DNA of 56,486 bases from Nodosilinea foveolarum. GTDB taxonomy: Bacteria > Cyanobacteriota > Cyanobacteriia > Phormidesmidales > Phormidesmidaceae. The position numbers and the translations under genes are program-made. The DNA lies in contig QBMC01000009.1 in assembly GCA_003242035.1 (NCBI GenBank), positions 1-56,486 on the forward strand, in the 5' to 3' direction. Within the stretch, counting starts at the first letter, position 1. Each line of letters opens with the position of its first letter. Below are positions 24,032 to 27,924 of this stretch, one piece after another. The notes below the pieces were generated by a model. The model saw nothing but the letters and a program-made list of their open reading frames with translations, ran no database searches and was not told the origin of the DNA.

Positions 24032-24814
24032 ATGAGCCGATCAATCCCTTCTGATAAAAGATCGAGCCTAGTCGCTGGATTCGTTCTCAATACGCTAGAC
24101 GAGCTTGAGGCAAAGGAATTTGGGCAGCTTGTGGCCAGCGATCCCACGCTGCTAGAAGACGTTGCTCAACTACAGCAGTCATTAGAAACTAGCTACGGGA
24201 TTGAGGAAGTCGCACCGCCGCCGATGCTGCGCGATCGCCTGCTCACCTCATTCTCAAATCAGCCGCCTGAATTAGCGGCCTCCAGCGATCTGCCCCGCTC
24301 ACAAACGCAACCCAAGCGCCTTCGTAGCCGACTGACAGCCGCTGTAGCAACGCTGGCGATCGCTCTCACTCTAAGCAACTATTTATGGTGGCAGTCATCC
24401 CGTCAGCAAATGGCTCAAGCGCCAGATTCTGCTGTTAGCGATCGCCAAACCCAAACCTACAAGCTAGACGCCACAGAAGCGGGAGAAGGCGGAACCGTTT
24501 TAGTTGAGATAGATCCAGCCACCTTAACCGGCACCCTGATCGCTAGTGACCTACCCCCTATCTCCGCCGATCAGGTATACGTCCTATGGACGGTGCTAGC
24601 CCCTAACGCACCTTATACCACCGATTCGCAGTCAGCTATTCTCACCACCACATTCACCGTAGACAGTCAGGGTGAGGGGCAAAAAACCTTATCACTACCC
24701 TCTGCTTTCGAGCAGCCTAGCTCGGTTGCGGCGCTCGGCATCACGATTGAATCGGCAAACGCACCCCAGGCACATCAAGGCGTTCCCGTACTGATGAACC
24801 TTTTGCAGAGCTAG
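24032..24814 (+). CDS. membrane anti-sigma factor, RskA-like
   Basis: 260 residues. Residues 12-70 (LVAGFVLNTLDELEAKEF with VASDPTLLEDVAQLQQSLE) form the cytoplasmic anti-sigma helix bundle. The zinc-type HxxxCxxC motif is absent. A single membrane span lies near 102-120 (LTAAVATLAIALTLSNYLWW). The C-terminal 120 residues are an RskA-type domain with LVEIDPATLTGTLIASDLP and VYVLWTVLAPNAP. Such proteins hold the cognate ECF factor at the membrane until proteolysis frees it. The stop codon shares the palindrome CTAG (24811-24814) with the stop of the convergent transporter gene. Confidence 0.9.
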   Translation: MSRSIPSDKRSSLVAGFVLNTLDELEAKEFGQLVASDPTLLEDVAQLQQSLETSYGIEEVAPPPMLRDRLLTSFSNQPPELAASSDLPRSQTQPKRLRSRLTAAVATLAIALTLSNYLWWQSSRQQMAQAPDSAVSDRQTQTYKLDATEAGEGGTVLVEIDPATLTGTLIASDLPPISADQVYVLWTVLAPNAPYTTDSQSAILTTTFTVDSQGEGQKTLSLPSAFEQPSSVAALGITIESANAPQAHQGVPVLMNLLQS

Positions 24815-26610
24815 TTCGAGTTCTTGCCTTCAGTGGTCTCGTCTTCGGCACCTGGCGCACCCACGAGTCGCCAGGTGCCAATGTCCCAGGTGCTCGCATC
24901 CCAGGGAGTCACATCTACGCCTTCTAAGCGATCGCTCACCGCATTCACAACCGCTCGTCTCACCAGCGGAATAACGACCACATTTTGCATCAGCAGCGTA
25001 TTCATCTGAGCAAAAAGATTTGCGCGCTTCTCGGGATTTAGCTCCCGGCTCGCCTGCTGCCAAAGCTTATCGTATTCAGGATTACAGTAGCGGGCGTTGT
25101 TGGGCTTTTGCCACTGGTTTTTGATTGAGGCCACCTGATCGCAGAGCCACCAGCTCATATAAATGGACGGATCGGGCGTATCGCTGCCCGCATTGTATTC
25201 CTGCATATCGGCATAAAAGTGATTGAGGCTTCGAGTCTGCGCCGGATCTGCCGAAAAGAAATCTTCTGGAATGACGCGTCGAATAGTAACGTCGATACCG
25301 ACCTTGGCCAAATCTTCTTTAATTAAAGTTTGTGTCCTTTGGCGCACCGGGTTGATCGGCGTTTGAAACGCCATGCGCATCTCTACGCCGTCTTTGTCGC
25401 GAATGCCGTTGTTGTTGCTATCTACCCAGCCCGCTTTATCTAATAATTTGTTGGCCTGCTCTGGAGAATAAACGTAGTAGAGCGCAGGGTTGGTATACTT
25501 CTGTGGAAAAGGCAGCAGTTGGTTAGTCCGCTGACCCGCATTCCCGTACACTTCATCAACAATAGTGTCTCGATTGATCGCATAGTCAATCGCCTTGCGC
25601 ACTTGCACATCGCTCAAAAACGGATGAGGGTTTTTCACCGCCGAGCGTTCTCCATCTTTTGTCACCTTATCTGGATCGCTCAAGTTGAGCATCACCCGCT
25701 CTACATAAGAGCCAAAAGTTGCTGATACTGTGCCCTGACCAGCCCCTGCTAAGTCGATGCGATCGCGCCGATTAAGCTGAATATTATGCGCAAAGTCCGC
25801 ATCCCCATCGCGCAGCACTCGCCGAGCGGCCACATAAGGCGTTAGCCCACCTTCTAACTCAACAATTTTAAAGTACGGCAGTCCTTCTCGATATTGCTCG
25901 TTCGCCCCAAACGTCCAAACGCCATCGGCCACCGTCAAAAACCGATAAGGCCCCGTTCCAATCGGCGCTAGGTTAGCCGGTGCAACCCGCACATTGCCTC
26001 CTAACACCTGAGAAAACACATGCTTCGGCAAAATCATCCCGTTTTGCCCCGTAAACGGCAGCGCCCAAGAAGGGTTAGGGGCTTTGAAGGTAATTTTTAC
26101 CGTTAGCGGATCGACTGCTTCGACCTTGGCGATCGCCTCGTAATAAGTTTCTGTCACCGCTGCCACCTGCGGGTCGGTTACAAACTGGTAGGTAAACACC
26201 ACATCTTCAGCCGTAAAAGGCTGACCGTCCGACCAGCGCACATCCGGCTTCAGTTTCCAGGTAACCGTTCTGCCATCTTTAGAAAGCCCCCCGTTTTCGG
26301 GTGTTGGGATGACCGCCGCTAACACCGGCACCATGTCGCCATTTTCCTCATAGGTAGCTAGCGGCTCGTACACAATCCGCGCCGCCTCAAAGTCTTGAAA
26401 ACCATTCGCCAAATGCGGGTTTAGCGTCGTCGGAATGCGGCTATACAGCAGCCTTAGTGTAGACTCATCGGCCTCCTTATTAGCCTGCTCCTCGACGGTA
26501 TCTATTTTCTCAGGCTGCCGAGTACAGCTCCCCAACCACAGCAACCCAACCAACGGAATACCCACCAAAGAAGCGCTAAGCAGCCTACGAACTAACCAAA
26601 AAGATTTCAT
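24811..26610 (-). CDS. ABC transporter family 5 solute-binding lipoprotein
   Basis: About 599 residues from the ATG at 26610; an open upstream start adds 19 residues and is less likely. The N-terminus has basic residues, a hydrophobic stretch and the lipobox LGSC, so it should be a lipoprotein. Residues 60-590 show the family 5 (DppA/OppA) pattern: IPTTLNPHLANGFQDFEAAR, WKLKPDVRWSDGQPFTAEDV, DVQVRKAIDYAINRDTIVDE and a C-terminal NTLLMQNVVVIPLVRR. These proteins deliver peptides, nickel or other solutes to an ABC importer. No permease or ATPase gene is adjacent, so the ligand is open. The gene converges on the anti-sigma gene with a 4-bp overlap. Confidence 0.93.
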   Translation of the reverse strand: MKSFWLVRRLLSASLVGIPLVGLLWLGSCTRQPEKIDTVEEQANKEADESTLRLLYSRIPTTLNPHLANGFQDFEAARIVYEPLATYEENGDMVPVLAAVIPTPENGGLSKDGRTVTWKLKPDVRWSDGQPFTAEDVVFTYQFVTDPQVAAVTETYYEAIAKVEAVDPLTVKITFKAPNPSWALPFTGQNGMILPKHVFSQVLGGNVRVAPANLAPIGTGPYRFLTVADGVWTFGANEQYREGLPYFKIVELEGGLTPYVAARRVLRDGDADFAHNIQLNRRDRIDLAGAGQGTVSATFGSYVERVMLNLSDPDKVTKDGERSAVKNPHPFLSDVQVRKAIDYAINRDTIVDEVYGNAGQRTNQLLPFPQKYTNPALYYVYSPEQANKLLDKAGWVDSNNNGIRDKDGVEMRMAFQTPINPVRQRTQTLIKEDLAKVGIDVTIRRVIPEDFFSADPAQTRSLNHFYADMQEYNAGSDTPDPSIYMSWWLCDQVASIKNQWQKPNNARYCNPEYDKLWQQASRELNPEKRANLFAQMNTLLMQNVVVIPLVRRAVVNAVSDRLEGVDVTPWDASTWDIGTWRLVGAPGAEDETTEGKNSN

Positions 26611-26667
26611 GAAAAACCGCGCAAAAAAGCAAATACTAAACAGAACATTTAAGCGTGAGACTGACAA

Positions 26668-27041
26668 TAACGATTAACGCACAGTCGGTCTCAAAATTGA
26701 CGTAAGACTGACGCTAGCGGCTAGCCGTTTCCAGATCAAAATGGCAGGCATTCGGCCACCGGATCAATTGAGTCGAGACTAGGCACTGCAATTCATCAAG
26801 ATACCAGAGGCGGTTGCCATCCCTAGGCTACATCCAACCGATTAATTTCTTGGTACAGCCGAAACTGCACGATACAAATCCGAACCATACCGATTAGAAA
26901 ACGGGAGGGAGAGAACAAAAGTTCTCGTAATACTAGCGCGAGTTCTAGTCTTTCTAGGTCAGATAGCGTCCGTCAGGTTGATTAAGGCGAAGACATCTAG
27001 CGCTGGCTGCTCAGAAGCGTCCTGATGCTAGCGAGCAAAGC
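26668..27041. other. non-coding region upstream of sRNA-like units
   Basis: About 370 bp without a supportable reading frame. It must hold the promoter of the minus-strand solute-binding gene and, on the plus strand, a promoter for the sRNA-like units that follow. I see no further repeat. Confidence 0.4.
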
Positions 27042-27103
27042 GGTACATCTAACTGGTAGATGCACCTTGATGTTCCTCGGCCTTCGGGTCGGGGATTTTT
27101 TTT
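27042..27103 (+). ncRNA. candidate small RNA A with intrinsic terminator
   Basis: GGTACATCTA (27042-27051) pairs with TAGATGCACC (27057-27066) around the loop ACTGG, with one mismatch. Then comes the hairpin CCTCGGCC-TTCG-GGTCGGGG (27075-27094) and eight T (27096-27103), a textbook terminator. No gene ends just upstream on the plus strand: the nearest plus-strand stop is at 24814. The terminated transcript is therefore probably a small RNA. Its 5' end is unknown and probably lies upstream of 27042. The motif AACTGGTAGATGCACC recurs in unit B. Confidence 0.55.
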
Positions 27104-27143
27104 GCTGATTTATCCTGAGCGGCCTCACTGTGCCGGAATAGTT

Positions 27144-27204
27144 AACTGGTAGATGCACCCTGACAGTTCCCTGGCTACTCTTCGGAGTACTAGGGAATTT
27201 TTTT
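27144..27204 (+). ncRNA. candidate small RNA B with intrinsic terminator
   Basis: AACTGGTAGATGCACC (27144-27159) repeats the motif of unit A. TTCCCTGGCTACTC (27167-27180) pairs with GAGTACTAGGGAA (27185-27197) over a TTCG loop, followed by a run of seven T ending at 27204. The stem sequences differ from unit A while the upstream motif is the same, as expected of two diverged copies of one RNA. The 5' end is unknown. Confidence 0.55.
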
Positions 27205-27230: not shown

Positions 27231-27264
27231 TAAAAAAAAGGGGCACCTAATGGCAACCCCTTTC
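27231..27264 (-). terminator. intrinsic terminator of the RG-rich protein gene
   Basis: AAAGGGG (27237-27243) pairs with CCCCTTT (27257-27263). The A-run at 27232-27239 forms the U-tract on the minus strand. It lies about 70 bp beyond the gene's stop. Confidence 0.7.
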
Positions 27265-27331: not shown

Positions 27332-27856
27332 CTAAGCTCCTTCGCCGTCACTGGCCTCGGTCGCGCCTTCAGTATTAGACTCAGCCGGTGTTTCAGCCGC
27401 TGTATCCGTCGTCTCAGCCATGGCCGTATCAGTCGCTTCGGCCTCAGCCTCAGCAATCCCTTCAGCCGCTTCAGCGTTAGCTTCCACTTCAGAAATCTCA
27501 GGCACCTCTGGCTTAGGAGACGGTTTTGGCCCCCGCACTAGCGCTGGATTAACCGGCCCTCTAGGTGCTTCGTCATCTCGCCCGCGACCCTTACCACGGC
27601 CTTTGCCACCGCCTTTGCCACCTCGACCACCATCGCGGCTGTCGTTACCGTCGCGACTATAGGTAGCCTGACCTTCACTAGCACTATCGCCTTCCTTGCG
27701 ATCGCCCTTCTTAACCGGCTTGGGCGTATCTCGCTTGGGCGCATCCGAGGGAGTGCCTTCTGCCTGATTGCTTTCTACCTGGGTTCCTTCGGCCTGCGCC
27801 CCTTCTGCTTGCTTCGCAGCGTCGCGATCGCTTTTCTTAATAGGACGCTCTGCCAT
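27332..27856 (-). CDS. low-complexity Ala/Glu/Gly-Arg-rich protein
   Basis: About 174 residues from the ATG at 27856 (MAERPIKKSDRD); an upstream open start adds 15 residues. The N-terminal half is charged (Lys, Asp, Glu, Gln). The middle has a glycine-arginine-lysine tract of the GGRGGKGGGKGRGKGRGRDD sort near 75-95. The short block PRGPVNPALVRGPKPSPKPE follows, and the C-terminal third is Ala/Glu-rich. It has no folded domain I know. RG/KG tracts often bind RNA, so a role with nucleic acid is conceivable but unsupported. The PVNPALVRGPKP block looks the most constrained. It heads no obvious operon. Confidence 0.75.
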   Translation of the reverse strand: MAERPIKKSDRDAAKQAEGAQAEGTQVESNQAEGTPSDAPKRDTPKPVKKGDRKEGDSASEGQATYSRDGNDSRDGGRGGKGGGKGRGKGRGRDDEAPRGPVNPALVRGPKPSPKPEVPEISEVEANAEAAEGIAEAEAEATDTAMAETTDTAAETPAESNTEGATEASDGEGA

Positions 27857-27924
27857 GATCTGTCGTGCTCTGTAAACTAAATTGCCAGACAATCGTATCA
27901 CGCAAGATTGAGCGACAGGCAGAA

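Follow-up and report, generated by a model that had tools for sequence, protein, structure and literature searches.

A tandem pair of NsiR1 genes in Nodosilinea foveolarum and the distribution of NsiR1 relative to HetR and HetZ in cyanobacteria

Background

Two intrinsic terminators that follow each other closely on one strand, each preceded by the same short motif and neither by a gene, raise the question of what it is that ends there. Such an arrangement occurs at positions 27042-27204 of the window, i.e. the whole stretch of 56,486 nucleotides of Nodosilinea foveolarum (contig QBMC01000009.1) that was analysed. A first-pass annotation, made from the letters of the DNA, had taken the two units for duplicated small RNAs of a kind that it did not recognise, and the shared motif for their target-binding segment.

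The RNA that proved relevant is NsiR1, which in Nostoc sp. PCC 7120 is described as a HetR-dependent small RNA with an array of 12 tandem genes next to hetF, every one of which has its own DIF1 promoter, and as a nitrogen-stress RNA that marks the cells becoming nitrogen-fixing heterocysts. It is reported to block the translation of hetF and alr3234, and the copy NsiR1.1 is described as antisense to the hetF leader. The DIF1 motif is given as TCCGGA at about -35 with one mismatch allowed (PMC6133370), and the dependence of the Anabaena DIF1 promoters on HetZ is reported to be more direct than that on HetR (PMC7377430). At a higher level, HetR and PatX are regarded as older than heterocysts (PMC7761841), hetR, hetZ and patU3 have already been counted among the core genes of filament-forming species (PMC2821919), and hetR and patX are reported from almost all filamentous cyanobacteria, their role in the absence of heterocysts being called a mystery (PMC11298460). 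NsiR1 homologues in 88 other genomes are mapped in PMC4734099.

Results

The two units are tandem copies of NsiR1

An exact motif scan located AACTGGTAGATGCACC without mismatch at 27051-27066 and 27144-27159 of the forward strand, i.e. with a spacing of 93 bp, and no third site was found in the whole window when up to three mismatches were tolerated (0.24 such matches are expected in shuffled sequence). The full common segment comprises 21 bases with one difference, TAACTGGTAGATGCACC(T/C)TGA. It is followed in unit 1 by a hairpin and eight T and in unit 2 by a hairpin and seven T; the terminator scan listed only the former, and the latter, which has a longer and bulged stem, was seen on folding (z-scores of the two units -2.1 and -3.1). 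The earlier observation of one 16-base motif in front of two unlike terminators was thereby confirmed, as was the absence of a gene in front of them: the nearest convincing forward-strand reading frame ends at 24814 and the neighbours lie on the reverse strand.

The Rfam model of NsiR1 (RF02399, gathering cut-off 39 bits) matched 27147-27204 with 50.7 bits and 27054-27102 with 44.9 bits, and both alignments span the entire model of 60 positions. An E. coli control stayed below the cut-off; a match to anti-hemB was rejected, as it fell below its own cut-off. The units are thus two tandem copies of NsiR1, i.e. new members of a known family, so that the proposal of duplicated small RNAs that keep a common 5' segment was right, but the RNA is not an unrecognised one. 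The features of the locus are listed in Table 1.

Table 1. Features of the NsiR1 locus in the window, with the evidence for each.
Feature	Position	Strand	Evidence
Extracellular solute-binding protein family 5 gene (peptide/nickel-type ABC transporter), likely start ATG 26610	24811..26667	-	PF00496, E 9.8e-68
DIF1-like -35 motif TCCTGA of copy 1, 36 nt before GTAG	27020..27025	+	sequence; family-wide DIF1 position
NsiR1 copy 1: invariant 5' segment ACTGGTAGATGCACC, TTGATGTT linker, terminator 27074-27095, T-run	27052..27103	+	RF02399 44.9 bits, fold; 5' end predicted
DIF1-like -35 motif TCCTGA of copy 2, 36 nt before GTAG	27113..27118	+	sequence; aligned in 7/7 genus genomes
GGAATAGTTA, predicted -10 region of copy 2	27135..27144	+	aligned block, identical in 4/7 genus genomes; promoter role inferred
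NsiR1 copy 2: ACTGGTAGATGCACCCTGA, terminator stem 27167-27197, T-run	27145..27204	+	RF02399 50.7 bits; genus-wide aligned counterpart with compensatory pairs
Glycine/arginine-rich low-complexity ORF, likely start ATG 27857	27332..27901	-	ORF and family search

Conservation and genomic neighbourhood

Conservation in relatives had been put forward as a test of the small RNA reading, and it bore the reading out: NsiR1 was found above the cut-off in all seven genomes of the genus and in all 57 sampled genomes of the family, only 24 of which have nifH above its cut-off. An aligned counterpart of copy 2 lies beside the solute-binding protein gene in 7/7 genus genomes, and in two of these (G134 and G217) it is the single unit at that locus. 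The terminator stem of copy 2 is 95.5% paired over the seven sequences, and in three of its 13 pairs both bases differ in one genome or more. With only seven sequences the support is modest: the covariation score was reached in none of 500 shuffles, the number of such double changes in 74. Both the intrinsic terminator and its conserved pairing, as expected for NsiR1, are therefore present, the pairing as judged from these seven copy 2 sequences.

The solute-binding protein gene is oriented head-to-head with the NsiR1 pair. It keeps this place across the genus and also beyond it, in further genera of the family; the intervening spacer is poorly conserved among the genus genomes. In a survey of the neighbours of 50 NsiR1 loci (a genome being usually represented by one of its several copies) this arrangement recurred at eight loci of the host's family, the window not counted. 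A hetF homologue stands head-to-head with NsiR1 in 12 genomes carrying eight family labels, weakly so in G006 (34% identity), and at none of the 23 surveyed loci of the host's family, which has the other neighbour; the hetF neighbourhood is thus not confined to one family.

On the other side of the pair, the Gly/Arg/Glu/Ala-rich ORF had no matches in Pfam or NCBIfam; a homologue of about 40% identity adjoins NsiR1 in the other six genus genomes. It is itself adjoined by a DUF5331 gene. Just past copy 2, at 27232-27261 of the reverse strand, a GGGG...CCCC hairpin followed by eight T was seen by eye (it is absent from the terminator scan), which is likely the convergent terminator of this ORF.

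Promoter boxes

In the surroundings of GTAGATGCACC(C/T), collected from 138 loci without a terminator screen, DIF1 with at most one mismatch lies 34-40 nt before GTAG in 234 of the 247 distinct cases, nearly always at 36-37, where about 2% per promoter would be expected by chance; since many of the cases share an array or a genome, they are not independent. Each window copy carries what appears from its sequence to be a DIF1-type box of its own, as the copies in Nostoc do. It counts against this assignment that the tandem copies have TCCTGA instead of TCCGGA, a variant found in 49 of the 247 cases. A promoter scan listed no sigma-70-type site before the units.

The 13 cases without DIF1 comprise L101, L121 and L122, which group with the host copy L004, furthermore L086-L089, and six single odd copies. 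L004, L101, L121 and L122 have no DIF1 in register and share a different front part (GTGAATAAAGG-like and CATCTTGGTAT-like), so that a third promoter class may exist. In L004 (G000:C222:43458-43530), which lacks DIF1 in register with its group, a chance-like TCGGGA is seen at 35.

The host genome

The host genome (4.75 Mb, completeness 99.85%) holds two further, dispersed NsiR1 copies below the cut-off (35.9 and 35.2 bits). It encodes a single HetR as an open frame of 315 aa that scores above the cut-offs of PF03574 and PF18460 and below that of the NCBIfam HetR equivalog (456 of 489 bits), a strong HetZ (E 2.3e-177) and a homologue of HetF, with 57% identity in the N-terminal part. The host hetF lies on contig C11 with no NsiR1 array beside it and no NsiR1 motif within the 400 nt upstream, and no hetP-like target gene of the alr3234 type was found. 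The 357 nt before hetR contain only two one-mismatch DIF1 hexamers, at -247 and -188, and a search for an RG(S/T/N)GR peptide around hetR turned up none.

No nifH was found above the cut-off of 394 bits, the best match having 223 bits and presumably being ChlL. Neither was there a HetP-family match (NF037966), which is present in two of the seven genus genomes. Given these two absences the host should not form working heterocysts, and we consider it very unlikely from its gene content that it does.

NsiR1 coincides with HetZ across the cyanobacteria

In a sample of 388 genomes drawn from the cyanobacterial class, NsiR1 was found above the cut-off in 201, with 23 family labels (labels counted by hand). 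HetR is present in 196 and HetZ in 210, 190 of the latter above the NCBI cut-off and 200 being strong (E below 1e-100, a line that was set after viewing the list, in the gap between 1e-24 and 1e-115). NsiR1 and strong HetZ occur together in 200 genomes, NsiR1 alone in one, HetZ alone in none and neither in 187, and the sole exception, G330, is only 69% complete. HetR coincides slightly less well with NsiR1 (194 genomes with both, seven with NsiR1 only, two with HetR only and 185 with neither). The strict table leaves out ten weak HetZ matches, the E-values of which lie at about 1e-17 to 1e-24 as against 1.9e-115 for the least significant of the strong ones; with the ten kept the counts become 200/1/10/177, and since all genomes with a strong HetZ have NsiR1, the NCBI cut-off for HetZ gives 190/11/0/187. 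Since presence and absence follow phylogeny, the 388 genomes are by no means independent observations; much of the coincidence is due to common descent, and the exceptions are the informative part.

Five of the seven genomes with NsiR1 and without HetR are fragmented, incomplete or contaminated. The other two (G006 and G021) are 99% complete, lack any HetR match, have kept HetZ (in G021 with E 1.7e-146, below the NCBI cut-off) and carry TCCGGA or TCCTGA before NsiR1, which fits the more direct HetZ-dependence of DIF1 promoters reported in PMC7377430. One genome (G092, 62% complete) has 17 NsiR1 matches, several of them in arrays (L083 and contigs C48, C60 and C119).

The weak Rfam matches, present in 11 of the 388 genomes, were read individually. 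Those of six genomes of genus g93 and of G278 were dropped as chance because the motif is absent at the match; the real motif is there in G164, G238, G266 and G271.

A second NsiR1 class carries a HetR-type site

G164 and G238 belong to one genus, hence represent one lineage, and have HetR without a HetZ match. Their sole RF02399 match is below the cut-off and lacks DIF1, the position of which is taken by GAGGGGATTGTCCCC. HetR is reported to bind GAGGGGTCTAACCCCTC and to require GGGN5CCC (PMC4192349), and L212-L215, L086 and L087 constitute a class of NsiR1 with such a HetR-type site, GAGGGGN5CCCC, in the -35 region. Among six genomes of this genus, three (G390, G391 and G393) have both DIF1 copies and the HetR-site class, two have the HetR-site class only and one (G392) has no match; in the two relatives shown to lack HetZ, the HetR-site class thus stands alone. 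Over 2958 bases, in two pieces, the sequence of locus L201 of G393 is that of Limnothrix sp. RL_2_0 without a difference. The six copies of the class, from the genus that includes Limnothrix sp. RL_2_0, share the GTAGATGCACCCTGA start with the window copies and likewise have a terminator, but they all score below the RF02399 cut-off and have the HetR-type site where the window copies have DIF1; by eye, none of the four NsiR1 copies of the host genome has a GAGGGGN5CCCC site. In G266 and G271, which have no HetR and only a weak HetZ match, a similar RNA is preceded by neither box, so that an NsiR1-like RNA can occur without the HetR-HetZ system.

Pairing with candidate targets

The shared 5' segment is likely the target-binding part of the RNA, given its invariance and the work in Nostoc. 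Target prediction with this segment, which had been suggested as a check, gave negative or inconsistent pairing tests. Against 32 start regions in the window, the 5' segments paired best with those of the DUF5331 gene and of genes that we take to encode PsbO-like and GGDEF proteins (z about -1.9 to -2.6), which is not convincing among 32 tests. Pairing with the start region of the neighbouring solute-binding protein gene was no better than with shuffled sequence (z +0.5 and +0.6), and with the hetF leaders of the genus z fell below -2 in 3/7 genomes only. As a control, the hetF of G191, which has NsiR1 in cis, paired strongly with it, as was to be expected (-27.1 kcal/mol).

Discussion

The window copies resemble Nostoc NsiR1 in the invariant 5' segment (UGGUAGAUGCACC(C/U)UGA), the size of about 50-60 nt, the terminator of each copy, the tandem arrangement and the DIF1-type -35 box. 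They differ in number (a pair plus two dispersed copies, against 12 in a single array), in neighbour (a solute-binding protein gene instead of hetF), in the box (TCCTGA instead of TCCGGA) and in the host, which lacks nifH above the cut-off and a HetP-family match. A parallel in this last respect is RNA162 of Limnospira indica PCC 8005, an NsiR1-like RNA in a non-heterocystous host with hetR, described as one RNA of 57 nt for which expression data exist (PMC8400943); the available portions of that source contain no promoter, hetZ or distribution analysis. The occurrence of NsiR1 in a non-heterocystous strain is hence already in print, at least for Limnospira, and the RNA family itself is known; what stands out is the host and the distribution. 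No link between NsiR1 and HetZ and no comparable distribution was found in the portions of the NsiR1 literature available (PMC9045159, PMC4734099, PMC8400943, PMC8406250, PMC6133370, PMC4365693, PMC7761841, PMC9679502, PMC9170634); earlier work may report a part of these findings.

With good confidence we read the locus as tandem NsiR1 genes with their own HetZ-dependent DIF1-type promoters, which would yield target-pairing RNAs of 50-60 nt that probably serve an older, pre-heterocyst role. What is observed is the family membership, the conservation, a DIF1-like box at the usual spacing and the terminators, together with the presence of hetR, hetZ and hetF in the host. In the mechanism that we envisage, HetR would turn on hetZ and HetZ-dependent DIF1 promoters would produce NsiR1, each window copy being transcribed from its own promoter once HetR and HetZ are active (a state triggered in Nostoc by nitrogen starvation). 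Each transcript would end at its terminator, and its invariant 5' segment may pair with mRNA start regions and block translation, as for hetF and alr3234 in Nostoc. As the host has no nifH above the cut-off, no HetP match and no NsiR1 beside hetF, its targets must at least partly differ from those in Nostoc.

The genomic context could also be taken to mean that the pair regulate the divergent solute-binding protein gene in cis as antisense RNAs, in the way described for NsiR1.1 and hetF, given that this gene faces NsiR1 throughout the genus and also in further genera of the family, much like hetF does in other families. This is unlikely, as the spacer is poorly conserved within the genus, the pairing with the start region of that gene does not exceed chance, and a hypothetical leader of over 440 nt, running through the units, is required. 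Far less probable still is that the copies are decaying and now functionless leftovers of a heterocyst-forming ancestor. The gene content of the host (neither nifH above the cut-off nor a HetP-family match) and the divergence of terminator stems and spacers would agree with decay, but the 5' segment, the TCCTGA box and the terminator pairing are kept across the genus, NsiR1 is above its cut-off in all 57 sampled family members and nifH in only 24 of them, and HetR and PatX are themselves held to be older than heterocysts (PMC7761841). The idea that the terminators are ordinary ones next to a chance repeat, or mark where an operon that escaped notice ends, deserves practically no credence: hairpins with T-runs are common and no sigma-70-type site was listed in front, yet it is refuted by the Rfam match of both copies, by NsiR1 in 7/7 genus genomes and by the lack of a coding gene in front.

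Conclusion

In a host with no nifH above the cut-off, no HetP match and no NsiR1 beside hetF, this RNA probably fulfils an older function of the HetR-HetZ system, one that it had in filaments before heterocysts. By its distribution NsiR1 looks like a core RNA of that system in filamentous cyanobacteria. We are somewhat inclined to go further and to regard NsiR1 as not a heterocyst RNA by origin but as the RNA of the core HetR-HetZ set, of which the DIF1 copies were kept or lost with hetZ, the HetR-site class persists without hetZ, and the ancestral target may lie outside heterocyst development, e.g. in filament breakage or cell division. The presence of NsiR1 in a host that is seemingly unable to make heterocysts suggests an older original job of this RNA, which would be an RNA member of the core set of filament formers (hetR, hetZ, patU3). 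As it tracks hetZ and carries the HetZ-dependent type of box, NsiR1 would provide both a read-out and a candidate effector for the role of hetR and patX without heterocysts, a question that might, if NsiR1 occurs there, be approached in the genetically tractable strain Leptolyngbya BL0902.
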